This document shows, piece by piece, positions 5,557 through 64,000 of a stretch of DNA of 64,000 nt. Both the position numbers and the translations under genes were made by a program. Below the pieces are notes generated by a model. It made no database searches, had not been told where the DNA came from, and saw only the letters and a list, made by a program, of their open reading frames with translations. Positions within the stretch are counted from its first letter, which is position 1, and each line of letters opens with the position of its first letter. Source of the stretch: Candidatus Acidulodesulfobacterium ferriphilum (lineage in GTDB: Bacteria > SZUA-79 > Acidulodesulfobacterales > Acidulodesulfobacteraceae); the NCBI GenBank assembly GCA_004195035.1, contig SGBD01000003.1, positions 1 to 64,000 of the forward strand, read 5' to 3'.

Positions 5557-6303
5557 TTAGTAAGCTGTTCCGGAAACTAAATTCGCCGAACTGCTGAAAT
5601 CGTCAACGGCATATATCTGCCAGTTAGAGCCAGTAAAATTGGTTTCAGCAAAAGCGGCATATCCGCCTCCGCAATAGCCGTTTGCTCCTGCTGCCCCTGT
5701 TTGTGTGGCGCCTGATGCGAGCGAGGTGACTGTCGGGGGCCACGCTGCAGCTACTCCTGCTGCTTGAGCGGCAACGGTGGGGCCGGAAAGTGATGCCACC
5801 CCATAGGAGAAATACAGGGTTCCTTTGGGATAAAAACCGATATCGGCAAAGCCGCCTTGAGCTTGAACAGATAAGGTTGTTGACGTAGCGGCGGTTGGGG
5901 CTATTGCACCGGTCGTTGTATTGATTGTATTAAGTCCGCCCATAGTGTCTAATGTCCCTCCATTGCAAGCAAACGGAGGTATATCGGAAATATATAATCC
6001 TGCTCCCTTTGTTAATGTTGCATCGTAAAAAGCGTGGGTGGGCGAAGCTGCCTTAGCAGTAAGAGCCGTTGCCGGTGCAGAAGAAGTTCCCGCGCTGATA
6101 TAAGTCGAATTTGTCGCGTTAAACGCTGTTTCGTCCGTAAAGATTGCGCCGAGGTTCGTGGACGCCTCCGAATCCTTTGCGCGGTTTACATAGCTCAAAT
6201 AAGTGGGAATCGCTATCGCCGCCAAGATGCCGATAATGGCGATGACGATTAAAAGCTCTATCAATGTAAAGCCTTTTTTCCCTTTTAATCTGTTAATGTT
6301 CAT
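5557..6303 (-). CDS. Type IV major pilin (prepilin), expressed locus
   Basis: This 248-residue prepilin has an 11-residue basic leader ending in KGKKG, cleavage before F12, Glu at mature position 5 ([20 protein letters not shown]) and the hydrophobic N-terminal helix that anchors and assembles the pilus. The body is rich in Ala, Gly, Thr and Ser. Two cysteines (C113 in PPFAC and C211 in GYCGGGY) probably form the D-loop disulfide. Conserved blocks ([23 protein letters not shown]) alternate with low-complexity segments. The transcript would end at the repeat 5462-5523. The divergent gene at 6787-7422 is a second body with the same layout but no N-terminus. No pilus assembly genes are nearby, so it uses machinery encoded elsewhere. 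Confidence 0.93.
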
Positions 6304-6786: not shown

Positions 6787-7422
6787 TTAAGCTACGTCAA
6801 TAGGGCAAAGGATTCGGAAGCGTCCACGAACTTAGGAGCCATATTTACGGACGAAACGGCGTTTAACGCGACAAACTCAATGTATATTAGTGCGGGGTCA
6901 AGTTCTGGTCCCACTGCAACAGCATTGGCCGCAGGCGCTGTTTCACCTGTTCACGCTATGTATGATGCCACAAACACAGCAGGCGCAGGAACATACTATG
7001 CAGATGTTGCGCCTTTTGCGTGTACTGGTGGTGTTCTTACTAATAACGGCAGTTATACGACATATGCTCCCGGTGCGGCGCCTAAACCTACCGTGGGTAA
7101 TACACCCGGAACTAAAGCAATTGGAGGCTTCGCTGATATTGGTTTTTACCCTAAAGGAAGCCTATATTTCTATTATGGCGTAGGAATAAGCTCTACTGCT
7201 ACCGATGCTACCCCGACGGTTATAGGCACAGCTGCTTGGCCGGTAACTGTTGCACCGCTTGGTGTAGGTGGAGCAGCCGTTGGAACAACTGGTACGAACA
7301 GCTCTTGCGGAGGCGGTTATGAAGCCGTTGCCGGAACCAACTTTGCTGGTTCAAATTTCCAAATATACGCTGTTAATGATTATAGCAGTTCGCCTATTCT
7401 AATTGCAGGAACAGCATATTAA
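6787..7422 (+). pseudogene. Silent pilin cassette: pilin body lacking leader and N-terminal helix
   Basis: The reading frame is homologous to the expressed pilin from its residue 36 onward ([13 protein letters not shown]...). It has no start codon at that point and an in-frame stop a few codons upstream; the first Met is at 6880. Over the first 30 shared codons all 12 differences are synonymous. Further on, constant blocks ([28 protein letters not shown]) alternate with diverged segments, and both cysteines are kept. Without a signal and N-terminal helix the product cannot be assembled, so it is either a donor for recombination into the expressed pilin or a 5'-deleted pilin gene. It shares the downstream terminator repeat with the intact gene. 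Confidence 0.85.
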
Positions 7423-49456: not shown

Positions 49457-50584
49457 TTACGTTTTCGCTTTTTCCTTTAGTCCTATATCTTCAATTACCC
49501 TATCTATATCTATTTCTTCCATACATTTTAGATTAACCGGATTATTGCAACTGCTTATTTTATAAAACGAGCAAGGGGAGCAATCCAAATTTGACCAAAA
49601 ATACCCGATGTTATTAAAGGGAAGCGAGTTTTTTGGGTTGGAGTATCCGAACAGGCAGTAAGTATTTTGATTTACCAAAGACGAGATATGCATTAGTCCT
49701 GAATCAATGCAAATATTTAAAAAGCTGCCTTGAAGGAGTAAAAAAGCCTCTTTTATATTTTTGGTTTTTTTGATGAACACTTTTTCCTTAAGATTATCGT
49801 TAATAAGTTCTAAATATTTATAGTCATCCGGTCCGCCCAGAAGATTTATTTCGCAATTTATAAATCCGTTTCTTAGCAAGTTGATTAACTTAAGCGAATT
49901 TGCCAAGGGGAGCATTCTGTGCATAAGCCCCCCGCTATTGCTTGATAGTATTAAGTTTACATATCCGGCTTTTCTATGTTCTTTGCTTTCTTTTTCCAAA
50001 TCGGGTAATTTCAAAGTGAATTGTTTATCTAATTTTTTAATATCAAAAAGCGGGGTGAAAAGATTTAAATAATTCTCGAAGATATGGGTGTCTGCCTCTA
50101 AATTAACGAGGAGATCGTATAGCGCCGTTTTAACCGGAGCACTGTTAAATCCTATTTTATAAGAATTTACGAAAAATAGCATCAGCGGAATGTTTACCGG
50201 CATACCGGTCATATCGAAGACGGCATCGTATTTGCTTTTTTTGATATGACCGGTAATTTTAAAATAGTCAATTAAGTTTAATGGATTAAATGAGATAATG
50301 TCGAATTCATTGTTGGTTTTTTGAAAGATTGAAAAAATAGGATTTTGTTTTGTTGTCAGGACATCAATTTTTAAGCAGGGATATTCCGCCTTTAACCTGT
50401 GGATTATTTCGGTGATGTAGATAGAGTCGCCCAGCCCTTCAAGTTTGATAATCAGTATTTTTTTAATTGAAACAGGAGGGTTTTTTTTGCTCCCCCCAAA
50501 GATTTTAAAGGTTTTGAGAATTTTAACCGAAATAGGGCTGTTAATAAAGCCCGAGATAAATTCGTTAATTTTTTTGTTATTCAA
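49457..50584 (-). CDS. Family 9 glycosyltransferase (heptosyltransferase-like)
   Basis: This 375-residue GT-B protein has KKILIIKLEGLGDSIYITEI (N-terminal GDxxxxxP-like region of GT9), a central IILSSNSGGLMHRMLPLANS-type donor region and LNICIDSGLMHISSLVNQNT then YCLFGYSNPKNSLPF, followed by the cysteine cluster C-SPC...C...LKCM common in ADP-heptose transferases. It would add a heptose or related sugar to lipid A core or a surface glycan. It diverges from the plus-strand locus that begins at 50784. Confidence 0.85.
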   Translation of the reverse strand: MNNKKINEFISGFINSPISVKILKTFKIFGGSKKNPPVSIKKILIIKLEGLGDSIYITEIIHRLKAEYPCLKIDVLTTKQNPIFSIFQKTNNEFDIISFNPLNLIDYFKITGHIKKSKYDAVFDMTGMPVNIPLMLFFVNSYKIGFNSAPVKTALYDLLVNLEADTHIFENYLNLFTPLFDIKKLDKQFTLKLPDLEKESKEHRKAGYVNLILSSNSGGLMHRMLPLANSLKLINLLRNGFINCEINLLGGPDDYKYLELINDNLKEKVFIKKTKNIKEAFLLLQGSFLNICIDSGLMHISSLVNQNTYCLFGYSNPKNSLPFNNIGYFWSNLDCSPCSFYKISSCNNPVNLKCMEEIDIDRVIEDIGLKEKAKT

Positions 50585-50783: not shown

Positions 50784-51527
50784 GTGAAACTATATAAAGG
50801 GAAAATATCTATATTAATGCCCGCTTATAACGAGGGCGACAGGATTTTCGGCAACCTTTTAAAGGCGTGGCAAACATTTAAAAAGTTCAGATTTCCGTTT
50901 GAAATCTTGGTTATAGACGATGGAAGCAAGGATAATACCAAAGACGAAATAAAAAGAGCAGGTTCTATCCATTCAGAGATAAAACTTGTGGAAAATAAAA
51001 CGAATATAGGCAAGGGTTCTGCTTTAAAAAACGGATTTTTAAATGCGTCCGGAGATATAATCGTATTCCTGGACAGCGACCTTGAAATCGCCCCGTTTCA
51101 GGTCGGAAATTTATTGAAGGCGATGAGGGATAACGATTCGGAGATTGCTATAGGTTCTAAACGGCATAAGGAGTCCAATTTGGTCTATCCTTTTTCGAGG
51201 AAGATATTAAGTACCGGCTATTACGTTATCATAAAGTTATTATTTAATCTGCCCGTTAAAGACACGCAGTCCGGCATTAAAGCATTCAGGCGCGATGTTC
51301 TCGATAAAATATTTCCAAAGATATTGTGCAAAAAATATGCCTTTGATGTGGAAATACTTGCAAATGCGGTTCGCAGAGGATACAAAATAACAGAAGTTCC
51401 AATAAAAATTGTTTTTTCAAGAAAAAATAATATTGGACGTATTAAAATAAAGGATATACTGGATATCTGGACAGACACCATGGCTATATGGTACAGAATG
51501 AAGTTAATAAAATATTATGATAAATAA
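50784..51527 (+). CDS. Family 2 glycosyltransferase, DPM1/polyprenyl-phosphate type
   Basis: A 247-residue GT-A enzyme: ISILMPAYNEGDRIFGNLLK, FEILVIDDGSKDNTKDEIKR, GKGSALKNGFLNASGDIIVF and LDSDLEI (DxD-like), then DTQSGIKAFRRDVLDKIFPK, the QSGFKxFR signature of dolichol/undecaprenyl-phosphate sugar transferases. It would load a sugar on a polyprenyl phosphate. GTG start at 50784. It overlaps the flippase gene by 11 bases, so the two are translationally coupled and open the plus-strand glycan operon. Confidence 0.9.
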   Translation: MKLYKGKISILMPAYNEGDRIFGNLLKAWQTFKKFRFPFEILVIDDGSKDNTKDEIKRAGSIHSEIKLVENKTNIGKGSALKNGFLNASGDIIVFLDSDLEIAPFQVGNLLKAMRDNDSEIAIGSKRHKESNLVYPFSRKILSTGYYVIIKLLFNLPVKDTQSGIKAFRRDVLDKIFPKILCKKYAFDVEILANAVRRGYKITEVPIKIVFSRKNNIGRIKIKDILDIWTDTMAIWYRMKLIKYYDK

Positions 51528-52872
51528 AATGCAAAGCCTGGTTAAAAGGCTGACTTCCGACAAACTTTTTTTTAATAGCGCGCTGGTTTTCTTTTTTATA
51601 ATGGCCGGGAATTTTTTTAACTATCTTTTTCAGATTGCCATGAGCAGGAGCCTCAGCGTTTCCGATTACGGCACGCTAAACTCCCTCCTGTCTTTGCTTG
51701 TTATAACCTCTATACCGTCGGGAGCCTTAACAGCCTTTTCCGCAAAAAATATTTCACACAATCTTGCCGGCGGGGATATTCGGGGTGTAAGAAAATTTAT
51801 TAAATACGCTCTTGTTAGAACTTTCTTATATGATTGCCTGTTTCTGGCAGTTTTTGTTATCGGTATTCCTTTCTTAATGAAATTTATGAAAATAGATTCT
51901 TATTTTTATTATGCCATAACGGGACTGGCTATTTTTCTGATATTCCCTTTTTCATTACTGCTGGGCAGTCTTCAGGGTTCCAGAATGTATTTATCTCTAG
52001 GGCTGTTCTCAAGCCTGTCTTCAATCATTAAATTTATTTTAGCCGTTGCGTTAGTATATGCCGGTTTAAACGTCGTCGGGGCTTTATTTTCGGTTGCGGT
52101 TTCACCTTTGCTTATTATGGTGGTTGCCGCCATTGTTTTATTTTCATATTTAAAACATAAACAAGGTGAGGCAGAGGAGAAACATATAATCATCGATAAA
52201 ACAGGAGAAAACGGCCTAAAAACTGGAAAGTTTTATTTTTTATCTCTATTTTTTATGTTATTCTTTTTTACATTTTTTACGAACATTGACCTTGTAACGG
52301 TGAAACATTTCTTTCCGGCATATAAAACGGGGATTTACTCCGTTGCCGACATTCTCGGCAAGATAATACTTTATTTTCCTTCCGCCGTTGTACTTGTTAT
52401 GTTCCCCGAAGTTTCCCACGCCCATGCTATCAACAACAAAACAAAGCATATATTGCTTAAAACTCTTTTTATCACATTTCTTATGTGTTCGTTTCTTGAA
52501 ATATTTTATATATTATTCCCGGATAAAATAATTTCGTTTCTTATGGGAGCAAAATATATAAGCTCAGCCCCATTGCTTACCTTATACGGTTTAAGCATGT
52601 TCCCTTTTGCCTTCATAAATATTTTTATTAATTACTTTATGGCCGTAAATAATTCAAAGATATTAATTTCCATGTTTTTATTTTCACTGCTGGAGATATT
52701 ACTATTTTATCTGTTTCATTATTCTTTAAGGGGAATAATTTTAATCATTATGATAACCGGCTGGGCAGCGATGCTTTCCTTGTCCATCCATGCCTTTTAT
52801 AAAGAGTTATCCCTGTTGTTGAAAAGATTTTTGCGTATCGTTCAAAACATAATACCCATAAATAATAATTAA
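51517..52872 (+). CDS. Wzx-type polysaccharide flippase (MATE/MOP family)
   Basis: This 451-residue membrane protein has about twelve hydrophobic segments; the start region SALVFFFIMAGNFFNYLFQI then AMSRSLSVSDYGTLNSLLSL is the typical first helix and loop of the MOP exporter superfamily. It would flip lipid-linked repeat units to the periplasm. It overlaps the DPM1-like gene and is followed seven bases later by a GT2 gene. A PST (Wzx-like) subgroup is likely; sequence alone does not tell the glycan. Confidence 0.87.
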   Translation: MINKMQSLVKRLTSDKLFFNSALVFFFIMAGNFFNYLFQIAMSRSLSVSDYGTLNSLLSLLVITSIPSGALTAFSAKNISHNLAGGDIRGVRKFIKYALVRTFLYDCLFLAVFVIGIPFLMKFMKIDSYFYYAITGLAIFLIFPFSLLLGSLQGSRMYLSLGLFSSLSSIIKFILAVALVYAGLNVVGALFSVAVSPLLIMVVAAIVLFSYLKHKQGEAEEKHIIIDKTGENGLKTGKFYFLSLFFMLFFFTFFTNIDLVTVKHFFPAYKTGIYSVADILGKIILYFPSAVVLVMFPEVSHAHAINNKTKHILLKTLFITFLMCSFLEIFYILFPDKIISFLMGAKYISSAPLLTLYGLSMFPFAFINIFINYFMAVNNSKILISMFLFSLLEILLFYLFHYSLRGIILIIMITGWAAMLSLSIHAFYKELSLLLKRFLRIVQNIIPINNN

Positions 52873-52879
52873 AAATAAA

Positions 52880-53863
52880 ATGAAAAACAATGCGTTTGTT
52901 TCAATCATAATTCCGCTTGTCGGCATAAATGACTATTTTTTGGAATCTTACCCGCATTTGCTTGCTCTCGATTACAAAGACTATGAAATAATTGTTTTGC
53001 CGGACGAGCCTGTTCCAGAGGATTTTCAAGGTATAAAAATAATTTCCACCGGCAGAGTTTCTCCCGCGATAAAAAGGGATATAGGCGCCGAAAATGCTAA
53101 TGGAGAACTTTTATTTTTCCTTGACGACGATTCTTATCCAGAAAAAGACTGGATAAGCAAAGCCCTGCCTTATTTTAACGACCCATCCGTTGCGGCTGTG
53201 GGCGGTCCTGCAATAACGCCTCCCGACGACAACTTTCTTCAAAAAGTGTCAGGAGCGGTTTTCTTAACAAAGGTGGGCGGGGGTATTCCCGAAAGATATT
53301 ATCCTAAAGGTGGAATTAAAGAAATTGACGACTGGCCGTCCGTTAACCTCATCGTCAGAAAGGAAATGTTTATGAAAGTAGGCGGATTTAAATCGGAATA
53401 CTGGCCGGGCGAAGATACAAAGATCTGTCTAGAGATAATAAAGGAAGGCGGCACGATATTATATGCTCCGGATGTTGCGGTATGGCATCACAGGAGGCCC
53501 GGTTTATTGCGCCATTTGAAGCAGATCGGCAATTACGGACTTCACAGGGGTTTTTTTGCAAAAAGATACCCCGAAACATCCTTTAAACTCTTATATTTCA
53601 TTCCGGTATTTTTTGTGCTATACTTATGTTTGTTTATTGTTTCCCTGTTTTTCTTTAGCGGATTAGCATATTATTTGGCTTTCGGCTTTGTTTTATATGC
53701 AGGGGCATTAATATACGCTTTCTTTGATATTAACGGAAAAGTGAAGGATTTTAAAATATCGCTGGTATCACTTTATTATATTGTTTTGACGCATATCTGG
53801 TACGGCCTAAGATTTTTTTACGGCTTTGTATTTGTGAAAGAACTTAAAAGCAAGCTAAGGTAA
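52880..53863 (+). CDS. Membrane-associated family 2 glycosyltransferase
   Basis: A 327-residue GT2 protein: VSIIIPLVGINDYFLESYPH, LFFLDDDSYPEKDWISKALP (DDD metal site), NLIVRKEMFMKVGGFKSEYW then PGEDTKICLE (ED acceptor motif), and a C-terminal pair of membrane helices (FIPVFFVLYLCLFIVSLFFF; LAYYLAFGFVLYAGALIYAF). It acts at the cytoplasmic membrane on a lipid-linked acceptor. It is tightly packed between the flippase and a radical SAM gene. Confidence 0.9.
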   Translation: MKNNAFVSIIIPLVGINDYFLESYPHLLALDYKDYEIIVLPDEPVPEDFQGIKIISTGRVSPAIKRDIGAENANGELLFFLDDDSYPEKDWISKALPYFNDPSVAAVGGPAITPPDDNFLQKVSGAVFLTKVGGGIPERYYPKGGIKEIDDWPSVNLIVRKEMFMKVGGFKSEYWPGEDTKICLEIIKEGGTILYAPDVAVWHHRRPGLLRHLKQIGNYGLHRGFFAKRYPETSFKLLYFIPVFFVLYLCLFIVSLFFFSGLAYYLAFGFVLYAGALIYAFFDINGKVKDFKISLVSLYYIVLTHIWYGLRFFYGFVFVKELKSKLR

Positions 53864-53878
53864 ATAAATTTAATAACA

Positions 53879-55363
53879 ATGAAAATTTCGATATCGTTTC
53901 CGCCGTTAGAATCAGAAAAGGGTGTTCCTCTTTTAACTCAAAACCGGCAATTTCAGTGGTTTAAAGACCCTACATTTATTTATCCTGTTATCCCGGCTTA
54001 TGCAGCTACATTATTAAATAAAAACGGTTTCGATGTCATATGGGACGACGGCATAGCCGAAGGGCTTTCGTATAATGAATGGCTTTTAAGGCTGAAAAAT
54101 GAAAAACCCGATGTAGTTGCTATAGAAACAAAGACACCTGTCGTCAAAAGACACTGGAAAATAATATCCGATATAAAACGACTTTACGAAAGTAATTCTC
54201 CTAAAGTCGTTTTAATGGGGGACCATGTTACCGCTCTTCCTGAAGAATCCCTTTTAAATTCGGAAGCCGATTTCATAATTACGGGAGGAGACTACGATTT
54301 TTCGCTTTACGGTTTATGTTCTTATTTAAATTTATCAAAACATTCAGCTTTAGAATCATTAAAAACTTCAGGCATATATTACAAAGACAACGGAAAAATA
54401 CTTAATACCGGCAGGTTTGAGCTTAATAACGACCTTAACGACCTGCCTTACATAGATAGAAAGTTAACCAAATGGCATTTGTACGCTTATAAGAACGGAA
54501 ATTTCAAATATACCCCCGGCACATATGTAATGGCTGGAAGGGACTGCTGGTACGGAAGATGTAGTTTTTGTTCATGGACGACCTTATTTCCCGGTGCAAA
54601 ATTCAGGTCCGTATATCCCGAAAGACACCTTGATGAAATAGGAAAACTCATAGAGGAGTTAAAAGTTAAAGAGATATTCGACGACAGCGGCTGTTTTCCG
54701 GCGGGAGACTGGCTTAAAGAATTTTGCAACGGAATGATAGAAAGAGGATATAATAAAAAAGTCGTAATGGGCTGTAATATGAGGGTAGGGGCTTTAAAGC
54801 AGGAAGATTGGAACCTGTTAAAAAGGGCCGGTTTCAGGTTTATCCTTATCGGTCTTGAGTCTATGACGCAAACTACACTCGATAAGCTCAACAAGGGCAT
54901 AAAAGTATCCGATATAGAAGAAACTGTTAAGACGGCTAAAAAGGCGGGATTGGAACCACATATTACTACAATGGTCGGTTATCCGTGGGAAACCAAAGAA
55001 GAAGCTTTAAAAACTATTGATTTTGCAAAATATTTGTTTAAAAAAGGTTATCTCGACTCGCTTCAGGCTACTATCGTTATTCCGTATCCAGGCACCCCTT
55101 TGTTTGTTGAAGCAAGGAAAGAAGGTTGGCTATTAACGGAAGATTGGGATAGGTACGATATGAAAGAGTCCGTCTGGAAAAGTCCCGTGGATAATAATGA
55201 TGTCTTAAAATTCACGCAGGGTTTGTATTCGGCAGCGTTAAATCCGGCATTTATAGCCCGAAAAGTAATTTCCATAAGAAATGCGGAAGACCTGAAGTTC
55301 ATGTTGAGGGCAGGCAAGAAAGTTGCGGCGCATTTTATGGATTTCGGTAAGAGCAGAAAGTGA
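53879..55363 (+). CDS. Radical SAM protein with B12-binding-like N-terminus (CX4CX2C)
   Basis: This 494-residue protein has an N-terminal Rossmann-type domain like cobalamin-binding domains (VIPAYAATLLNKNGFDVIWD; PKVVLMGDHVTALPEESLLN), then a radical SAM core. The cluster motif AGRDCWYGRCSFCSW has four residues between the first two cysteines (CX4CX2C) rather than the usual three. Later: FRFILIGLESMTQTTLDKLN and VGYPWETKEEALKTIDFAKY. Members methylate or rearrange unreactive carbons. The setting among glycosyltransferases suggests action on a sugar, lipid carrier or repeat unit. Specific reaction unknown. Confidence 0.85.
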   Translation: MKISISFPPLESEKGVPLLTQNRQFQWFKDPTFIYPVIPAYAATLLNKNGFDVIWDDGIAEGLSYNEWLLRLKNEKPDVVAIETKTPVVKRHWKIISDIKRLYESNSPKVVLMGDHVTALPEESLLNSEADFIITGGDYDFSLYGLCSYLNLSKHSALESLKTSGIYYKDNGKILNTGRFELNNDLNDLPYIDRKLTKWHLYAYKNGNFKYTPGTYVMAGRDCWYGRCSFCSWTTLFPGAKFRSVYPERHLDEIGKLIEELKVKEIFDDSGCFPAGDWLKEFCNGMIERGYNKKVVMGCNMRVGALKQEDWNLLKRAGFRFILIGLESMTQTTLDKLNKGIKVSDIEETVKTAKKAGLEPHITTMVGYPWETKEEALKTIDFAKYLFKKGYLDSLQATIVIPYPGTPLFVEARKEGWLLTEDWDRYDMKESVWKSPVDNNDVLKFTQGLYSAALNPAFIARKVISIRNAEDLKFMLRAGKKVAAHFMDFGKSRK

Positions 55364-55413
55364 AAAAACATATGAAACGTAAGGTAAGCTAAAATTAATG
55401 TTTTAAAATTTTT

Positions 55414-56694
55414 ATGGTTAAAAATAAAAAACTTCTTTTAATATCCTTAAGAGACCCATTTCTTGATTCAGACAGGGTAATGCCGCCTATCGGAGTAATG
55501 TCTTTGCAATCTTATATGCTATCCTTAGGATTTGATTCTAAAATAGAAAATGATTTCGATTTGTATAATATAGACAAATATCATGAGTATACCCATTTTG
55601 CAATATCATGCATGACTCCTCAGAAAAAACAGGCATATAGCATTCTAAATATAATCAAGTTAAGATTTAACGATAAGAGTGTGATAATTGGTGGGCCTCA
55701 TACGCAGTATTATTTAGAAGATTGCGTAAAAGAACCGTTTGATTATATAATAGTCGGGGATGGCGAATATTCTCTTAGAGCGGTAATAGAAGGTAAAGCA
55801 AGTCAAAGAATACTTAATATACCTATAACATCGGCTGAAATGAATAAACTGCCTGTTCCATACAGAGAACCTGAATTTTTAAAACAGTATAACTTTAATA
55901 TTCAGGGAATCAATGCCTCTACTATTCTGACCGCGAAAGGTTGCCCAATGTCATGTGCTTTCTGTGAAGATGCCGGGACCAAGGTAAGGCTTTATAATCC
56001 AGAAAACATAGATATCCAAATAAAGGATGTACTAAATGCAGGGTTTAAGGGGATTATGTTTTTTGACGATATATTTGCGATTTCAAAAAAAAGGATTAAA
56101 GATTTAGTATATGTAATTGGAAGATATAATATTTCCTTTAGATGTTTCGGACACGCGAAAAGCATGACCGATGAAATGGCCAAATTACTTTCTGATAGCG
56201 GTTGTATTGAGGTAGGATTCGGAGCAGAATCCGGTTCTCAACGCATTTTAAGTGCAATAAATAAAAGAACCACAGTTGAGGAAAACATTAAGTTTATTGA
56301 AATCTGCAACAAATACGGGATTAGGGTAAAGGCTTTTATAATTATAGGACTCCCTGGAGAGGATTTTACTACCATAGAAGAAACAAAAAAATTTCTTGAC
56401 ATACTCTTGTCTAATAAATTTACGAATAAATTCGGAAAAGAGGTTACGAACGATTTCGATATAACGGTATATTTTCCCTACAAAGGGACAAAAATCAGAA
56501 GCGCTATGGATAAAAATTCTGGAGAATATGATATTTATTTTTCTCAGAATCCCGACGATTTGCAGGGTTTTTATAAAGGAAGAGGGGGAAGTACCGAGAT
56601 TTCTGTGAGGACTTCTTTGTTAGACTCTGGTCTTATCCAAAAAACGCAGAAAGAATTGTTAACAGAGTATAAGCGTAAGGTCATTAACCATTAA
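55414..56694 (+). CDS. Radical SAM protein with B12-binding-like N-terminus
   Basis: A 426-residue class B-like radical SAM enzyme: N-terminal nucleotide-like domain (PPIGVMSLQSYMLSLGFDSK; KSVIIGGPHTQYYLEDCVKE), cluster motif TAKGCPMSCAFCEDAG (CX3CX2C), then IEVGFGAESGSQRILSAINK and VKAFIIIGLPGEDFTTIEET. It probably uses methylcobalamin or acts as a carbon-skeleton enzyme. It lies between another radical SAM gene and two GT2 genes. The order of reactions in the pathway cannot be read from sequence. Confidence 0.87.
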   Translation: MVKNKKLLLISLRDPFLDSDRVMPPIGVMSLQSYMLSLGFDSKIENDFDLYNIDKYHEYTHFAISCMTPQKKQAYSILNIIKLRFNDKSVIIGGPHTQYYLEDCVKEPFDYIIVGDGEYSLRAVIEGKASQRILNIPITSAEMNKLPVPYREPEFLKQYNFNIQGINASTILTAKGCPMSCAFCEDAGTKVRLYNPENIDIQIKDVLNAGFKGIMFFDDIFAISKKRIKDLVYVIGRYNISFRCFGHAKSMTDEMAKLLSDSGCIEVGFGAESGSQRILSAINKRTTVEENIKFIEICNKYGIRVKAFIIIGLPGEDFTTIEETKKFLDILLSNKFTNKFGKEVTNDFDITVYFPYKGTKIRSAMDKNSGEYDIYFSQNPDDLQGFYKGRGGSTEISVRTSLLDSGLIQKTQKELLTEYKRKVINH

Positions 56695-56727
56695 TATTTA
56701 ATGTAATTTATTTATTAATTTAATCCT

Positions 56728-57681
56728 ATGGAAAAGAGTCTTGTTTCTGTCATAATAGCGACAAAAAATGAAGGGAATAATATTGAGAATTGTCTTAAGT
56801 CGATAGTATTTCAAACATACAAAAATATCGAAATAATTGTGGTTGACAACAACTCAACCGACGACACAAAGGAGATAGCAAGAAAATATACAGATATTGT
56901 ATTAAATAGGGAACCCAAAAGATCAATTCAAAGTAATTATGCCGTCGATATTTCAAGCGGCAAATATATTTTTCATGCGGACGCAGATATGGTTCTCGCC
57001 CCGAAGCTTATTAATTCTTGCATTCAAAACGCCCTTAAGTATCAAGATGTTATAGGTTTCTATGTTTCTGAAATAGTGCTTGGAAAATCGTATTGGAGCA
57101 AGGTAAGACGGTTTGAAAGAGGGTTTTATGATGGAACGGCCATAGACGCCGTTAGATTTTTTCACAAAGATGCATTTGTAAAAATAAATGGATATGACGA
57201 AGAAATGTTATGGGGGCCTGACGACTGGGATCTGAATAGAAGATTGTCCGAGGTCGGTAAATTAAAAATAATATCAGATTCCGAATCTCTTGCGAAAACG
57301 GATAACGCATATAATAATATTGAAAATTTAACGAAATGGCATAATGCTTTCGATCGCTTTTTGGAAGAAAGAGGAGTAACGAATGCTGCTCTATCTGAGG
57401 GGAGCATTTTATTTCATAACGAAAGCGAGTTTAATCTTAAAAAATATATGACAAAAAAAAGGGTCTATTCTAAAAGTTTCAGCCAATACATAAGTAAATG
57501 GGGAATTAACGATCCTATCATTAAAAAACAGTTTGGGATATTGTATAGGTATTTTAGCGTGTTTATCGAGAACGGCAAGTGGAAGAAGTTGATTAAACAT
57601 CCTCTCTTAACATCGGGGATGTATTTTTTAAGGATTAATGTAGGATTATTGTATTTAAAAACCAAGTGGCCGCTAAATTAA
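56728..57681 (+). CDS. Family 2 glycosyltransferase
   Basis: This 317-residue GT2 enzyme reads SVIIATKNEGNNIENCLKSI then VFQTYKNIEIIVVDNNSTDD, GKYIFHADADMVLAPKLINS (DxD) and GYDEEMLWGPDDWDLNRRLS. No membrane helix is seen. It follows the second B12-type radical SAM gene by 33 bases. Sugar and linkage unknown. Confidence 0.9.
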   Translation: MEKSLVSVIIATKNEGNNIENCLKSIVFQTYKNIEIIVVDNNSTDDTKEIARKYTDIVLNREPKRSIQSNYAVDISSGKYIFHADADMVLAPKLINSCIQNALKYQDVIGFYVSEIVLGKSYWSKVRRFERGFYDGTAIDAVRFFHKDAFVKINGYDEEMLWGPDDWDLNRRLSEVGKLKIISDSESLAKTDNAYNNIENLTKWHNAFDRFLEERGVTNAALSEGSILFHNESEFNLKKYMTKKRVYSKSFSQYISKWGINDPIIKKQFGILYRYFSVFIENGKWKKLIKHPLLTSGMYFLRINVGLLYLKTKWPLN

Positions 57682-57736
57682 AATGAGCAAATAAATTTTA
57701 GATAACAGTAAATTTAAAATAATAAAAAATTTTAAT

Positions 57737-58798
57737 ATGAAAATTTATCCTAAAATCAATATCTTAATACCAACTTATAACCGGGCTAATTATCTGATAA
57801 ATGCTATTGAAGGCGCCTTATCTCAGGATTATGAAAATCTTGAGGTAATCGTTTTAGACGATGCCTCTTCGGATAACACTCAAGAAGTGGCTCAAAATTA
57901 TTTAAAAGACAAAAGATTCAAATTATATAAGAATACGGAAAATCTGGGCGGGTTCAGGAGTTTTAAAAAACTTGTGTATGAGTATAATAATTCTGATTGG
58001 TTTTTGTTTCAATCCGATGATGATTATTTAACGGATAATAAATATATTTCTAAATGCGTCTCTCTTTTAAATAAATATAAAGAGAAAAATGTGGTATTAA
58101 TCGGTTCTAATCAGGATCATGTTTTTGAAGATAATAGAAATATTAAAATTAATACATGTAGATTTTTTTATGAAATTAATGATGGGAGGTCAATCTTTTT
58201 AGATTTTTATAAAGCAAGCTTTCCGGGAGCTTTTTCTTTGCAGAAAACAGATGTTATTAAAAAACTAAAATGCTGGACATTTGAAGGTTTTTCTTCCGAT
58301 TCTGAAGCAATATTGATGCTATGCTTGAATGGATATGTAGGATTTTTGAATGAAACATCGGGATGTTTCAGATTTTATAATACTTCTAAAGCCTCATATA
58401 TGTCATATTTAAATTTGCCTTGCCATGAAGCTTTGAAAATTGCTATGAACAACATTCAATTTATTAAAAATCTATATAATTATGCAAAAACTGAGCAAAT
58501 TTTTCCTAATAAAATTTTAGAGAATTGGCGCGAAAAAATGATAATATGGTATTCGAGGTCCACTTTTTTTAACTTTTTGCATAATAGTAATAGCGAATCA
58601 GCAATGCTTTTCAAGAAAGAGATTATTAAAAAATATCCTTTTGTTTCTCTTCATAAAGTATCAATTATATCAATAAGCTATTATTTAACCACAAAAAACT
58701 TTTTTATCAGGAAGATAGGTTACTTGTATAAATATAAAATGCTAAATATTATGAGACTTATATTTAAAAAGGGTTATTCAGGAGATATGATTAAATAA
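57737..58798 (+). CDS. Family 2 glycosyltransferase
   Basis: A 353-residue GT2 enzyme: INILIPTYNRANYLINAIEG then ALSQDYENLEVIVLDDASSD, and FLFQSDDDYLTDNKYISKCV carrying the acidic metal site. The C-terminal half is AT-rich in codon use and less typical, with ENWREKMIIWYSRSTFFNFL before a basic tail. It lies between a GT2 gene and a SPASM-like radical SAM gene. It might come from a recent transfer within glycan loci, but this is a weak inference. Confidence 0.88.
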   Translation: MKIYPKINILIPTYNRANYLINAIEGALSQDYENLEVIVLDDASSDNTQEVAQNYLKDKRFKLYKNTENLGGFRSFKKLVYEYNNSDWFLFQSDDDYLTDNKYISKCVSLLNKYKEKNVVLIGSNQDHVFEDNRNIKINTCRFFYEINDGRSIFLDFYKASFPGAFSLQKTDVIKKLKCWTFEGFSSDSEAILMLCLNGYVGFLNETSGCFRFYNTSKASYMSYLNLPCHEALKIAMNNIQFIKNLYNYAKTEQIFPNKILENWREKMIIWYSRSTFFNFLHNSNSESAMLFKKEIIKKYPFVSLHKVSIISISYYLTTKNFFIRKIGYLYKYKMLNIMRLIFKKGYSGDMIK

Positions 58799-58871
58799 AG
58801 ATAAGAGGTGGGCATCTATCTACTAGTATCTGAAACAATCGGACAAATAATTAATACTAAAAATTTTTAAA

Positions 58872-59783
58872 ATGTCAAAAATTAAAATTCCTGATAATTA
58901 CAACTATTTAGCCTGCTTTCTGACGCATGCATGTAATTTGTCATGTCCTTATTGCATAAATCTGAATGAGAATGGTTTAACCAGAAGAATGGTTTCTAAA
59001 AGCATGCATATTTCAGGAGAAGAATGGATAAATTTTATAAACAAGCTAGAAATAAGACCTGACGGACTTCCCGTTACTCTCCAAGGCGGAGAGCCTACTC
59101 TTCATAAGGATTTTTATAAAATAGTAAACGGGATCAGAACTGACATAAAGCTTGATCTTCTTACAAATCTTATGTTCAATGTTGATGAGTTTATTGCCAA
59201 TGTGGATCCAAAAATATTTAATAGAAAAGCCAAATATGCGGCTATAAGGGCAAGTTATCATCCCAGTCAAAACAACATAGATGATTTAGTTCAAAAAATA
59301 CTTAAAATGGCAGATGCGGGATTTTATATAGGGCTTTATTCCGTCATGGTTCCTGAAAACGAGGCCCATATAAAAGAAATTCAGGAACGTTGTTTAATCC
59401 TCGGGATAGATTTCCGAGTAAAAGAATATTTAGGCTATTCTAATGGCACATGGTATGGAACTTACAGGTTCCCTGAGGCTATAACACAGCGCCATGAAAA
59501 ATACTGCGAGTGCAAAACAACTGAACTTATAATTGGACCGGATGGAAGTGTATATAGATGTCATGCCGATCTATACTCAAAAAGGAGTCCGATAGGTTCG
59601 ATTTTGAATATAAATTTTACAATAGAAAATATTTACAGGCCTTGTTATGTATTTGGGCATTGCAATCCATGCGATATTAAAGTTAAAACAAACCGCTTTC
59701 AAGAATTTGGACATTCTTCCGTTGATATTATAAATATTAAAGAACTTAATGGACAGACTCTACCAAATACCAATATGATCTAA
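58872..59783 (+). CDS. Radical SAM protein with SPASM-like C-terminus
   Basis: A 303-residue radical SAM enzyme: YLACFLTHACNLSCPYCINL (CX3CX2C), GLPVTLQGGEPTLHKDFYKI (GGEP), then LTNLMFNVDEFIANVDPKIF. The C-terminal part has further cysteines, KYCECKTTELIIGPDGSVYR then CHADLY and CYVFGHCNPCDIKV, probably ligands of an auxiliary iron-sulfur cluster. SPASM-type proteins often dehydrogenate alcohol carbons of sugars or peptides; no precursor peptide gene is seen nearby, so a sugar substrate is more likely here. Confidence 0.86.
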   Translation: MSKIKIPDNYNYLACFLTHACNLSCPYCINLNENGLTRRMVSKSMHISGEEWINFINKLEIRPDGLPVTLQGGEPTLHKDFYKIVNGIRTDIKLDLLTNLMFNVDEFIANVDPKIFNRKAKYAAIRASYHPSQNNIDDLVQKILKMADAGFYIGLYSVMVPENEAHIKEIQERCLILGIDFRVKEYLGYSNGTWYGTYRFPEAITQRHEKYCECKTTELIIGPDGSVYRCHADLYSKRSPIGSILNINFTIENIYRPCYVFGHCNPCDIKVKTNRFQEFGHSSVDIINIKELNGQTLPNTNMI

Positions 59784-59819
59784 TATTTAACCATATTTCT
59801 ATATTTTATACGTAATAAC

Positions 59820-60881
59820 ATGAATTATAATTTCGATGGTCATAAGCTTTTTTATAATTTTAAAACAACTTGCGATATTTTATTAGATAAAATCGTAAAT
59901 CCTGTTTACATAGAGTATTCTCCTGTAGGTAACTGCAACCATAGATGCATTTTCTGTGCTTATGATTACATAGGCTATAAGCATAGACAACTAAATAGAG
60001 AAACGACCGTAGCATCTATAAGGGATTTTGCAAAGATAGGTGTTAAGGCAATGCTTTTTGCCGGAGAAGGAGAACCATTGCTTCATCCGGATATTTCGGC
60101 TTTTATAACAACTGCCTTTGGGTCTGGTGTTGACACCGGAATTTATACTAATGGGGTGCTTTTTGACCAGAAAAGAATTAAAGAAATTTTTGATAAGCTT
60201 ACATTTGTGAGAATATCATTTAATGCCGGTTCGAGGGAAGTGTATAGAAAAGTGCATAAAAAAGACGATTTTGACAAAGTAATAAAAAATATTAAATTTG
60301 CGGTTGATTTTAAGCGTAAAAAGAACGTAAAGGCTGATATAGGGCTTCAATTTGTGGTTATTCCGGAAAATTTAGATTCTTTATTGAAACTTTCCGAACT
60401 TGGCAGAGAACTTGGAATTGATTACCTCGCTGTAAAGCCGTTTGTCCAACACAACAGTCAAAGAGGTTACGAATTCAGGCACAACTATTCTCTGTCTGAT
60501 ATAGAATTAGTTCTTAACGAAGCAGAAAGTTTTTCAACGGAATCTTATAAGGTTATAGCTAGAAAAGAATCTTTTAGGAAATATCATGAAAGGACATACG
60601 ATCACTGTCTTGCCCTTCCGTTATTTGGGGTTGTTTTAAGCGACGGCAATGTTTATGCCTGCGGTCCGTATCTTGGAGACGAAAGATTTCATTACGGCAA
60701 TATTGATGAAAAAAGCATAATACAAATATATCGGGGCAAGAAAAGAAATGATATAATTAAGTTTGCAAAAACAGATTTGAATTGCAGGAAGAATTGTATG
60801 CCTAACTGTCGTTTGGATGCCATTAATCGTTCGCTCTGGGAATTGAAGCATCCTACTGTAAAACATATTAACTTTATTTAA
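59820..60881 (+). CDS. Radical SAM protein with SPASM-like C-terminus
   Basis: This 353-residue enzyme reads PVYIEYSPVGNCNHRCIFCA (CX3CX2C), VKAMLFAGEGEPLLHPDISA (GEGEP), FVRISFNAGSREVYRKVHKK, LGRELGIDYLAVKPFVQHNS and, at the end, YACGPYLGDERFHYGNID then NCRKNCMPNCRLDAINRSLW with auxiliary-cluster cysteines. It is a paralogue of the partial gene at 63211, sharing the GHKL start, GEGEP, VRF/ISxxA and LGxELGxDYL blocks. It ends one base before the transketolase gene, so the two are probably coupled. Substrate unknown. Confidence 0.87.
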   Translation: MNYNFDGHKLFYNFKTTCDILLDKIVNPVYIEYSPVGNCNHRCIFCAYDYIGYKHRQLNRETTVASIRDFAKIGVKAMLFAGEGEPLLHPDISAFITTAFGSGVDTGIYTNGVLFDQKRIKEIFDKLTFVRISFNAGSREVYRKVHKKDDFDKVIKNIKFAVDFKRKKNVKADIGLQFVVIPENLDSLLKLSELGRELGIDYLAVKPFVQHNSQRGYEFRHNYSLSDIELVLNEAESFSTESYKVIARKESFRKYHERTYDHCLALPLFGVVLSDGNVYACGPYLGDERFHYGNIDEKSIIQIYRGKKRNDIIKFAKTDLNCRKNCMPNCRLDAINRSLWELKHPTVKHINFI

Positions 60882-60882
60882 A

Positions 60883-61701
60883 ATGGATAGAAGATTACTT
60901 AGTTCGGAAGATATAAGAAAAAAAACAATCCGCCTTTCCTGTGAAAGCGGAGCGGGACATCTTGCCCCTTCTCTATCCAGCATTGAGATTTTAACGGTTT
61001 TATTTAGGGATTTTATGAAATTTAAGGACTATGATCCTTTTTGGGAAGGAAGAGACAGGTTGGTTTTCAGCAAAGGTCACGGTGCTTATGCGTATTACAT
61101 AATTTTAAACGAAATTGGATTTTTACCAGATTTTGAACTTAAGGAATTTTATAAAACCTCAAGTATAAAAGGTTGCTTAGTTTCTAATCCAAATTATATG
61201 ATAGAAGCATCTACCGGTTCTTTAGGTCATGGTCTTCCGATTGCTGTCGGTATGGCCAAATCGCTTAAAATGCAGAACCTCTCAAATAAGGTTATCGCTA
61301 TAGTTGGAGATGGCGAGATGCAGGAAGGAAGTAATTTTGAAGCCTTACAGCTTGCTTACCGTTTTAAACTTGACAACTTATTGCTTATAATAGATGCAAA
61401 TGATCTTCAGGCAATGGACAGGGTTGAAAATGTCGGTCTTCCTAATGATAAGCTAAGCAAAATTCTTTCATTATTTACTGTAAAAAATTGTTTTTACGAT
61501 ATTGACGGTCATAACGAAGAACTTCTAGGAAATTGTTTTTCTAATGTTTTCTTAGGAAAAGGAAGGAAAGGATTTATAAACATTGCTTTCTGCAGAACAG
61601 TTAAAGGAAAGGGACTTGATTTTATGGAAAATGTTGCAAAATATCATTTTAGATGTCCAACTGAGGACGGGTACAAGTTAAATAATGACGCTAATAAATA
61701 A
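60883..61701 (+). CDS. Transketolase N-terminal (ThDP-binding) subunit
   Basis: A 272-residue protein corresponding to the first domain of transketolase: SCESGAGHLAPSLSSIEILT (conserved GHxxxxLS), RDRLVFSKGHGAYAYYIILN, STGSLGHGLPIAVGMAKSLK and the ThDP motif VGDGEMQEGSNFEALQLAYR then LLLIIDANDLQAMD. Split transketolases are encoded as adjacent N and C subunits, as here (17-base overlap). In a glycan locus it may move a two-carbon unit onto a sugar nucleotide, or make a ketose, rather than serve the pentose pathway. This is inference. Confidence 0.9.
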   Translation: MDRRLLSSEDIRKKTIRLSCESGAGHLAPSLSSIEILTVLFRDFMKFKDYDPFWEGRDRLVFSKGHGAYAYYIILNEIGFLPDFELKEFYKTSSIKGCLVSNPNYMIEASTGSLGHGLPIAVGMAKSLKMQNLSNKVIAIVGDGEMQEGSNFEALQLAYRFKLDNLLLIIDANDLQAMDRVENVGLPNDKLSKILSLFTVKNCFYDIDGHNEELLGNCFSNVFLGKGRKGFINIAFCRTVKGKGLDFMENVAKYHFRCPTEDGYKLNNDANK

Positions 61702-62170
61702 AACCGAATTAATGAAAAGATTTTATAATTATTTCTCTAAAGAAGAAAAAGCGGTTCTTCTGGTCGGGGATATGGGTTTTTCTGCTTTGGACGATTATTT
61801 TAAAAATCATCCTGACAGAGTATTTAATACAGGTATAACCGAACAGGCTACCATAAGTTTAGCCGCGGGCATGAGTATGACAGGTTTAAAACCTTTCATA
61901 TACTCGCAGGCACATTTTATAACTATGAGGTGTTTTGAGCAGCTAAGGTATGATTTGGACGAACATAATATGCCCGTTAAAATAATAGGGGTTGGTGCCA
62001 ATAATTATTTTGAAAAGCTTGGAAGATCGCACTGTGTGGATGAAGATGATAAGCTTGTGGTATCTGTTTTAAAAAACTTTATTATCATGGAGCCAACCGT
62101 CTATACCGTTGATAAAGATATTAAAAAATTTATTTCTTATAATAAGCCTGTTTATTTAAGATGTATTTAG
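61685..62170 (+). CDS. Transketolase pyrimidine-binding subunit, short form
   Basis: A 161-residue partner: AVLLVGDMGFSALDDYFKNH then RVFNTGITEQATISLAAGMS (catalytic Glu of the EQ motif), GLKPFIYSQAHFITMRCFEQ and KIIGVGANNYFEKLGRSHCV. It ends at KPVYLRCI, the last strand of the Pyr domain, so the third (C-terminal, regulatory) domain of ~120-150 residues that ordinary split transketolases keep is absent. The stop is clean and the next gene follows after 65 bases, so this looks like a real short form, not a frameshift. It overlaps the N subunit. Confidence 0.87.
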   Translation: MTLINKTELMKRFYNYFSKEEKAVLLVGDMGFSALDDYFKNHPDRVFNTGITEQATISLAAGMSMTGLKPFIYSQAHFITMRCFEQLRYDLDEHNMPVKIIGVGANNYFEKLGRSHCVDEDDKLVVSVLKNFIIMEPTVYTVDKDIKKFISYNKPVYLRCI

Positions 62171-62235
62171 TAATGGTTCAAATGCAATTTATTCTCTGCG
62201 GCATTAATTTATACAGAAGGATTTAAAGGACTTAT

Positions 62236-63171
62236 ATGAATAAGATACTTGTCGTAAAAATGGGTTTATCGGAAACTCTTGATAACGAAAGAGGAAAAAC
62301 AGTAAGCCTTGGAGATGTGTTAAGATGCACGGTTATTTTAGAACCTTTAAAAAAGACCTACCCAAGTTCTTCTATAGCATGGCTTGTTTCAAACGAAGCA
62401 TTTCCATTGCTTAAAGATAATTCCGATATTGATAGAATTATGGTCTGGGACGAATTTATGCCTTTTGCATTAATGCGTGAAAGGTTTGATATGGTAATAA
62501 ATCTCGAAAAAATTAACGGTGTAAGTGCTCTCGCCGATATGATGGATGCCCCAGAAAAGCTGGGTTTTAGATTTAATCCTTCAACAGGGGAATTTGATAC
62601 ATACCTGAGGTCGTTTAGAGCTAAAGAGTACATTGTGGAAAAAAATAATAATGGGAAAAGAACTATCTGGCAAGAGGTTATATTGTCTATGGTTGGCTTT
62701 GAATGGAAAAACCAAGAGTATTCTTTGGGATATAAACCAAAAACTGAAGAAAAATATACCGTAGGCTTAAATTGGAAAGTTGGAACAAAGTGGCCAACTA
62801 AAGGTGCCAGTGAATCTTGGTGGAAGAAACTCGGGTCCGCTTTAGAAAGTAAAAACATAGATTATTCCTGGCAACAGGGCATGAGTAACCTTTATGAATA
62901 TATGGATTGGATAAACAGCTGTCAGGTTCTTATCACCAACGACAGTTTAGGGTTACATCTGGCTTTGGCATTAAAAAAGAAAATCGTTGCTTTGTTCGGC
63001 GCAACAGATCCTTCCGAAGTTTTCATGTATGGAAGAGGAAAAATCGTTATTCCTAAAGCAGAATATAATTGTTTTTCTTGTTATAGCCCTGTTTGCGACC
63101 AAAAAATGAATTGCATGGAACTCATGGATATTAAAGATGTCATAAATAATGTTATCTTATTTCTCGATTAA
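62236..63171 (+). CDS. Family 9 glycosyltransferase
   Basis: This 311-residue GT9 enzyme begins MNKILVVKMGLSETLDNERG then GKTVSLGDVLRCTVILEPLK and ends with CQVLITNDSLGLHLALALKK, VALFGATDPSEVFMYGRGKI and the Cys cluster YNCFSCYSPVCDQKMNCMEL, typical of the heptosyltransferase family. It differs strongly from the GT9 at 49457-50584. It lies between the split transketolase and the last radical SAM gene, so a special sugar made by them could be its donor. Confidence 0.86.
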   Translation: MNKILVVKMGLSETLDNERGKTVSLGDVLRCTVILEPLKKTYPSSSIAWLVSNEAFPLLKDNSDIDRIMVWDEFMPFALMRERFDMVINLEKINGVSALADMMDAPEKLGFRFNPSTGEFDTYLRSFRAKEYIVEKNNNGKRTIWQEVILSMVGFEWKNQEYSLGYKPKTEEKYTVGLNWKVGTKWPTKGASESWWKKLGSALESKNIDYSWQQGMSNLYEYMDWINSCQVLITNDSLGLHLALALKKKIVALFGATDPSEVFMYGRGKIVIPKAEYNCFSCYSPVCDQKMNCMELMDIKDVINNVILFLD

Positions 63172-63210
63172 AATTGATTTTATTAAATTATATTATTGAA
63201 GGGTGATACG

Positions 63211-64000
63211 ATGTCCGATAAATACATGATGTCCGGCCATAAGCTATATTGGCACCTTGATAAAGTCCTTGGTTGGCTTAACGGGGAAAAGCAAGTTCCT
63301 TTGCATATGGATATAGGTATAGCAAAAGGTTGTGATATATCATGCGTATATTGCTATGGTGTAACGCAGGGCAGGGCTGGTAAGAATATTTATATACCAA
63401 AAGAACCGCTTGTAAACTTTATGAAAGATGCCGCAGAGGTTGGGATAAAATCAATAGCAATAACGGGGGAAGGAGAACCCACTTTAAATCCGCACTTAAC
63501 GGAAGCGCTTATAATCGGTAAAAGGGCTGGGTTAGATATAGGGTTGGCAACATGGGGTGGCAATATAAAAGAAAATGAATTGGAAGAAATCGCTTCCAGT
63601 CTAACATGGGTAAGATTTAATATAAGTGCGGCAGATAGCGTTAGTTATAAAAGAATACACAGGACAGCGGAAGAGAATTTCGATAGGGTTATCGGCAATA
63701 TTAGAAAAATGGTCAACATCAAGCATGCTAAGAATAAAAATATAACCATAGGACTTCAGATGGTTACAATGCCGCATTATGCTAATGAAGCCTTAAAACT
63801 TGCCCAACTAGGGAAAGAACTTGGCGTTGATTATCTGGAGATAAAACATTGCAGTGATACCCATGACGGCAAGTTAAATGTTCAGTTTGACGAATATGAT
63901 AAAGTATTAGATATACTTAAAAAGACTGAAGAAATAGGGGATGATGAATACAGCATAATTGTTAAATGGGATAAAATCGTTAAGAAAAAAGAAAAAAGAT
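63211..64000 (+). CDS. Radical SAM protein (partial, runs off the window)
   Basis: The ATG at 63211 follows GAAGGGTGATACG. The first ~263 residues are seen: MSDKYMMSGHKLYWHLDKVL, cluster motif AKGCDISCVYCYG with C41, C45, C48, then KSIAITGEGEPTLNPHLTEA, WVRFNISAADSVSYKRIHRT and LGKELGVDYLEIKHCSDTHD. It is a paralogue of the 59820-60881 protein. The 3' end, where SPASM-type cysteines would lie, is beyond the window. Same operon direction as all genes from 50784 on. Confidence 0.88.
   Translation, partial: MSDKYMMSGHKLYWHLDKVLGWLNGEKQVPLHMDIGIAKGCDISCVYCYGVTQGRAGKNIYIPKEPLVNFMKDAAEVGIKSIAITGEGEPTLNPHLTEALIIGKRAGLDIGLATWGGNIKENELEEIASSLTWVRFNISAADSVSYKRIHRTAEENFDRVIGNIRKMVNIKHAKNKNITIGLQMVTMPHYANEALKLAQLGKELGVDYLEIKHCSDTHDGKLNVQFDEYDKVLDILKKTEEIGDDEYSIIVKWDKIVKKKEKR

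Follow-up and report, generated by a model that had tools for sequence, protein, structure and literature searches.

A surface-glycan locus of Candidatus Acidulodesulfobacterium ferriphilum with a putative exchangeable sugar cassette of radical SAM enzymes and a two-domain split transketolase

Gene content of the locus

The stretch of DNA analysed here, termed the window, comprises 64,000 nucleotides of Candidatus Acidulodesulfobacterium ferriphilum (C3:1-64000 of the 1.87 Mb assembly) and ends in a probable surface-glycan locus (50784-64000), in which genes of radical S-adenosylmethionine (rSAM) enzymes stand beside a two-gene transketolase (TK). A preliminary description of this DNA had listed four family 2 glycosyltransferases (GT2), a flippase, a family 9 glycosyltransferase (GT9), five rSAM genes and the two-gene transketolase, placed on one strand with short gaps, and this content was borne out by Pfam and NCBIfam matches together with a check of the open reading frames (ORFs), the flippase being recognized through its orthologue. 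All ORFs are intact and run in one direction on the forward strand, with intergenic gaps of −17 to +91 bp.

The run is opened by GT2a (50784..51527; PF00535, 105 bits), followed by a Wzx-type flippase (51517..52872) that has no Pfam match of its own and was assigned by synteny and through an orthologue (L160:12083-13399, 50% identical), which passes Polysacc_synt PF01943. Next come GT2b, a membrane-anchored glycosyltransferase (52880..53863; PF00535/PF13632), the HpnJ-like rSAM protein rS1 (53879..55363; PF04055, 63.7 bits), the B12-binding-type rSAM protein rS2 (55414..56694; PF04055, 71.7 bits), GT2c (56728..57681; PF00535) and GT2d (57737..58798; PF00535, 86 bits), the last of which lies upstream of rS3 here and in the loci L079 and L096. 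The part termed the cassette starts with rS3, a SPASM-like rSAM protein (58872..59783; PF04055, 40 bits), and continues with rS4, an rSAM protein with one four-cysteine auxiliary site (59820..60881; PF04055 and PF13186 above cut-off), TKn, the large, PP-domain subunit of the split transketolase (60883..61701; PF00456 (Transketolase_N), 84 bits), TKpyr, the small subunit, which consists of a Pyr domain alone (61685..62170, 161 aa; PF02779 (Transket_pyr)), a GT9 of the heptosyltransferase family (62236..63171; PF01075, 47 bits) and rS5, a paralogue of rS4 (31% identical) whose rSAM domain is recognized via NCBIfam relatives (63211..64000, running on to C3:64287). When the sequence is followed past 64 kb, the locus continues with the end of rS5, GT2e, rS6 (a B12-type rSAM protein, C3:65544-66992) and large membrane proteins including DUF2079, in this order; farther downstream, the opposite strand encodes another flippase, a GT2/GT1 fusion and proteins like HddC and HddA.

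Constant ends and a variable centre

The order GT2a-flippase-GT2b-rS1 is common to the family loci L158, L159, L160, L162 and L163, and in most family loci GT2c follows shortly downstream of rS1, so that it may be regarded as semi-constant. L161 retains GT2b-rS1, and G040 matches the scaffold pattern in part. Orthologues of GT2b that adjoin rS1 in six loci are 45-92% identical, and those of rS1 in genomes of the family are 73-99% identical, most of them without the cassette. Genes similar to rS6 and to Mem876 lie downstream in several family loci. When 50784-55363 of the window and C3:65544-72144 were compared with L158-L163, the scaffold ends were found to be constant and the centre variable in five family loci: the centre of L158 and L159 encodes a nucleotidyltransferase, an epimerase and a UDP-glucose dehydrogenase, joined in L158 by a C-methyltransferase, while that of the window holds rS3-rS4-TKn-TKpyr-GT9-rS5 instead. 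Since the scaffold order is kept and the content of the centre differs, the locus is read as a glycan-assembly scaffold that stays constant and a sugar cassette that is swapped. Its pattern is like that of an O-antigen-type island. The same synteny rules out a single pathway with five rSAM genes, as which the whole 13 kb had at first been described, because rS1 and rS6 are parts of the scaffold and rS3-rS4-TK-GT9-rS5 is a separable cassette.

A transketolase reduced to two domains

The closest solved relative of TKn, as well as of the families of full-length small subunits (TKc), is the split transketolase of Carboxydothermus (PDB 6yaj/6yak). TKn contains the thiamine diphosphate (ThDP)-binding PP domain with its GDG...N motif, and the catalytic Glu is conserved in all aligned cassette transketolases that cover the site. 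The residues S345, H416, D424 and R474 of human transketolase, whose established role is to bind the sugar phosphate or donor, have a different fate. In the window's enzyme S345 is kept, H416 is replaced by G and D424 by L, and R474 is absent, the members within L052-L104 being similar. Across the cassette transketolases position 416 is Gly wherever aligned, save for a gap in the phage row, position 424 is A, Q or L, position 345 is mostly Gly, and R474 is missing or replaced by Lys or Thr; Arg is retained there in one full-length member (L091) and appears also in the fragment L087. All four residues are kept by the Carboxydothermus enzyme, and the His and the Asp are present also in four split transketolases of distant genomes.

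The second peculiarity concerns the small subunit. The transketolase had been described as split, which holds for the two genes, yet it has to be amended in that TKpyr ends at the Pyr domain and lacks the C-terminal TKC domain. The same is seen in 7 sister loci, whereas full-length small subunits measure 286-314 aa. A frameshift or pseudogene was rejected as the cause of the short subunit, because the subunit ends at this domain boundary in 7 other loci too, whose TKn sequences form, together with that of the window, one supported clade (8 rows, support 99/99). As the loss of the third domain is stable across Omnitrophota, Desulfuromonadaceae and this genome, a working two-domain enzyme may be argued from sequence. 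A housekeeping transketolase was likewise ruled out, for a full-length transketolase (C1:528609, 655 aa frame) and DXS-like frames are present elsewhere in the genome.

Features of the radical SAM proteins

Seven cysteines are invariant or nearly so in 49 sequences of rS4, and seven are invariant in 26 sequences of rS5. In both cases the set comprises a CX3CX2C core of three and four more that fit one auxiliary cluster, and the two proteins have in common a GHKL-like N-terminus and a HINFI-like C-terminus. The SPASM match of rS4 (PF13186) scores 28.8 bits at a cut-off of 21.5. An AlphaFold2 (AF2) model of rS4, with a predicted local distance difference test score (pLDDT) of 91, finds DesII as its best Foldseek match (E 5e-17, template modelling score (TM) 0.69), with BlsE at TM 0.67 and further matches to MoaA, viperin and BtrN. 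The likeness is structural only, rS4 reaching 49.9 of 450 bits against the DesII family TIGR04426, below the cut-off; the modelled fold favours a sugar substrate and names no reaction. In rS3 (AF2 pLDDT 87) eight cysteines are invariant in 28 sequences, and the fold search gave no close structural relative, anSME and a sactipeptide maturase being matched weakly.

The preliminary description had counted two B12-type rSAM proteins in the window. For rS2 this nearly holds, its B12-binding match (PF02310) lying just under the cut-off (31.4 vs 32.1 bits), but for rS1 it does not, as no match to a B12 domain was obtained. Moreover, the canonical CX3CX2C of rS1 is replaced by CX4CX2C (AGRDCWYGRCSFCSW), a motif present also in its family orthologues in L149, L150, L153, L154 and L155, while L157, a more distant relative, has the ordinary CX3CX2C. 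The similarity of rS1 to HpnJ (TIGR03471, 148.8 of 577.6 bits) remains below the cut-off.

The cassette in other bacteria and in phages

The fear that the locus might be a chance mixture not conserved in relatives did not come true when the gene set was sought elsewhere. A scan with the rS4/rS5 alignment returned 79 loci, 60 of which (L052-L111) were analysed, and the cassette was found to recur across phyla, in Omnitrophota, Nitrospirota, Geobacter, Campylobacterota, Clostridia, rumen Bacillota and Gastranaerophilales, as well as in the isolates Solidesulfovibrio carbinolicus and Geobacter sp. OR-1. Recurrent adjacencies are TKn-TKc (24), GT9/rS4 (22), rS3-rS4 (14), RmlD-rS5 (9) and TKc-RmlD (7). 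A transketolase gene lies nearby in 30 of the 60 loci, against about 1-3% by chance, and a transketolase or E1-type gene in 37, although the loci are not all independent of each other.

Many of these loci carry cassette-linked genes of sugar activation, namely HldE-like nucleotidyltransferase-kinase fusions and GmhA-like isomerases; genes of cytidine diphosphate (CDP) sugars are also linked to cassettes, pse genes to that of Solidesulfovibrio, and RfbH together with acetolactate-synthase-like genes to that of L061. In L047, HddA and HddC adjoin a split transketolase. E1 alpha/beta pairs take the place of the transketolase or stand alongside it in sister loci; they are carried by L057, L070 and L097, and in Azospirillum such a pair occurs with SIS and PfkB genes. 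Among the examined genes of the window's own locus no YerE-like or E1-type ThDP enzyme was found. The Desulfuromonadaceae locus L077 (L077:12046-21012) has the minimal transketolase pair and, in addition, a pair of E1 alpha/beta genes, which suggests two distinct ThDP steps in one glycan. In two family genomes, G011 (L050:2102-4361) and G007 (L051:291-2550), a SPASM-type rSAM gene adjoins a ThDP pair that is E1-like and has two domains (177 and 214 aa), a further minimal ThDP enzyme along these lines.

The relatives nearest to the window's genes are not those of one organism: rS3 (68%) and rS4 (71%) are closest to Helicobacteraceae UBA6016, TKn (67%) and TKpyr (54%) to L077, and by these comparisons the window's cassette copy is itself recombined. 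On two IMG/VR contigs (L131:3327-6929 and L132:608-5840) rS3, rS5, glycosyltransferases and a ThDP pair of two domains have phage genes as neighbours. The phage genes are a DNA methyltransferase and a GroEL-like gene in L131, with a terminase elsewhere on the contig, and a DNA polymerase exonuclease subunit and an HNH endonuclease in L132. These copies suggest a portable unit. In an annotated phage collection rS4 homologues were few and weak, and no rS3 homologues were found.

Proposed function and alternatives

It is proposed that the locus would assemble a surface glycan by means of a constant scaffold (GT2a, flippase, GT2b, rS1, GT2c and, farther on, rS6 and the large membrane proteins) with a swappable sugar slot, filled here by the mobile cassette rS3, rS4, TKn, TKpyr, GT9 and rS5. 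The substrate would be a nucleotide-activated sugar, probably of a heptose- or phospho-ketose-derived kind, which rS4 and rS5, with one auxiliary cluster each, may oxidise or epimerise by chemistry like that of DesII, BtrN or BlsE. The two-subunit transketolase would then pass a two-carbon hydroxyacetyl unit to the keto-sugar formed and, in many relatives, a neighbouring RmlD-like reductase may reduce the branch; finally the sugar would be joined to the glycan by GT9, and the glycan lengthened by the GT2s and exported by the flippase.

An activated-sugar substrate is favoured by the position in the slot, the linked sugar genes, the DesII-like fold and the lost phosphate site taken together, and the placing of the transketolase beside an RmlD-like reductase would parallel, by analogy, known pairs of branching enzyme and ketoreductase. 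The unusual surface sugar of the preliminary description has gained from the same material, that is, from the nucleoside diphosphate (NDP) sugar genes in this slot of two relatives, the heptose-pathway-like, CDP-sugar and pse genes linked to cassettes and the likeness of rS4 to DesII and BlsE. That the cassette serves a glycan sugar is accordingly held with high confidence, and the proposal as a whole, a modified-sugar cassette with rSAM oxidation or epimerisation and two-carbon addition by the transketolase, is given even credence. The gene content, the mosaic build of the locus, the recurrence of the cassette, the conserved Cys sites and the loss of residues for sugar-phosphate binding in the transketolase are direct observations. 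A two-carbon branch on the sugar is credited slightly short of evenly; we infer it, as we do the NDP-sugar substrate and the order of steps, and the "branched" sugar suggested earlier keeps that standing.

Several observations weigh against this proposal. NDP-sugar enzymes, for which the preliminary description had advised a search, were met in the slot of L158 and L159 and linked to sister cassettes, but none that forms an NDP-sugar lies inside the window's copy; the nearest candidates, the HddA/HddC-like genes, lie on the opposite strand at a distance of ~13 kb downstream, and both score under the curated cut-offs. The RmlD reductase is missing from this copy, too. On this proposal such enzymes would have to come from elsewhere in the genome, where short-chain dehydrogenase/reductase (SDR) genes are present on C1, C2 and C4. 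Besides, the different nearest relatives of rS4 and TKn imply that the two need not share one substrate molecule, and half of the 60 loci have no recognised transketolase, in some owing to short contigs.

One may ask whether the transketolase branches a sugar at all. It could make a special ketose phosphate, similar to sedoheptulose-7-phosphate, as the starting point for an activated heptose or higher sugar of an unusual kind: a GmhA-like isomerase and an HldE/HddA-like kinase would carry out the conversion, after which the rSAM enzymes would modify the sugar and GT9 transfer it. The HldE-like and GmhA-like genes with which the cassette is linked in many loci as well as in two isolates, the HddA and HddC of L047 and the heptosyltransferase family of GT9 agree with such a route; nevertheless the cassette transketolases have other amino acids at the positions that bind the sugar-phosphate donor and acceptor, the genome has a full-length enzyme on C1, and no GmhA or HldE is linked to the window's copy, these being found on other contigs only (GmhA on C1, HldE domain II on C2), so that this explanation is considered unlikely. 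Rather more improbable is that radical chemistry alone (epimerisation, dehydrogenation or deoxygenation) modifies the sugar and that the transketolase pair belongs to a neighbouring pathway, co-located since glycan loci gather sugar genes. The loci without transketolase and the different nearest relatives of rS4 and TKn would fit; yet many of those loci are short or lie at the end of a contig, TKn and TKc directly adjoin rS4, GT9, RmlD or rS5 in many phyla, and the phage contigs hold rS3, rS5 and the ThDP pair together.

The SPASM-like enzymes might, on the other hand, be maturases of ribosomally synthesized and post-translationally modified peptides (RiPPs) or of metallo-cofactors, given that a tungsten-enzyme maturase and MoaA are among the best NCBIfam matches of rS4 and rS5, and that rS3 shows a weak likeness to peptide maturases in NCBIfam and, as a model, to anSME and a sactipeptide maturase. 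Maturation of a RiPP or cofactor was rejected, as the scores are far under the cut-offs (rS4 96 of 380 bits) and gaps of at most 91 bp leave no space for a precursor gene; with the glycan context in many phyla and the fold of rS4 closest to DesII, it is rated very improbable. To return to the transketolase-branching proposal, a broader version of it is advanced tentatively, with clearly less than even credence: a widely exchanged cassette, spread over many phyla and some phages, might make carbon-branched surface sugars, rSAM enzymes doing the oxidation and a transketolase of two domains and two subunits, without its phosphate site, then transferring hydroxyacetyl. No known transketolase would be smaller, and sugar branching would gain a third ThDP route.

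Other features of the window

The locus is flanked on the reverse strand by a further gene of the GT9 family (49457..50584; PF01075, 60.5 bits), which is counted here as a neighbour and not as a part. A promoter scan gave a result at chance level. At the opposite side of the window a prepilin-like protein is encoded at 5557-6303 (reverse strand), and a similar ORF without the N-terminal part at 6880-7422 (forward strand).

Relation to known systems

In the literature searched, which left most subscription journals outside, the combination of rSAM and transketolase genes was met only for Campylobacter fetus, in passing, and the term "split transketolase" led to no paper. It had earlier been noted that the combination could not be recognised as a described pathway, which stands apart from this one mention: in region CFF8240_1582-1612 several rSAM genes, two transketolase subunits, glycosyltransferases and a methyltransferase are listed together (PMC5013579). 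The likeness, compared by gene list alone, is in the gene combination; the difference is that the region was treated as one of recombination only. Within that literature, neither this recurrent gene combination nor a transketolase with two domains and no phosphate site appears to have been described, the individual parts being of known kinds.

The findings point to a larger transketolase family beyond Streptomyces, marked by a residue signature, a minimal two-domain form and recurrent rSAM and reductase partners, and with these and the cultured isolates, keto-sugar branching by transketolases becomes testable on purified proteins and glycans. If true, the proposal would also offer a lead to the substrates of several rSAM families that are as yet uncharacterised. 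DesII and BlsE, which act on a TDP-amino-sugar and cytosylglucuronate, respectively, are the top and a close structural match of the rS4 model, but are only 15-18% identical to rS4. The Carboxydothermus enzyme has the two-gene layout and catalytic Glu in common with the cassette transketolase, and differs by keeping the phosphate-binding His, Asp, Ser and Arg and the third domain.

YerE and the E1-type pairs AviB1/AviB2 and Pau11/Pau12 are ThDP enzymes for which the addition of a two-carbon branch to a keto-sugar has been proposed or shown; E1 alpha/beta pairs are known for such branches (PMC4753412, PMC4425429), and pairs of this type occur in sister cassettes. They belong to other ThDP subfamilies and use pyruvate as the donor, and the parts of these sources consulted report no rSAM partner. 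Nearest in proposed chemistry are the split-gene transketolases of miharamycin and amipurimycin, antibiotics of Streptomyces and the sole setting in which such branching had been suggested before; they were proposed to add hydroxyacetyl to keto-sugars, an activity never shown in vitro, and for which 13 putative sequences were mentioned (PMC12247030). The cassette shares with them a split-gene transketolase with proposed sugar branching and, judged by their description, is set apart by its place in surface-glycan loci, its occurrence in other phyla, its rSAM and GT9 partners and one clade without the C-terminal domain.

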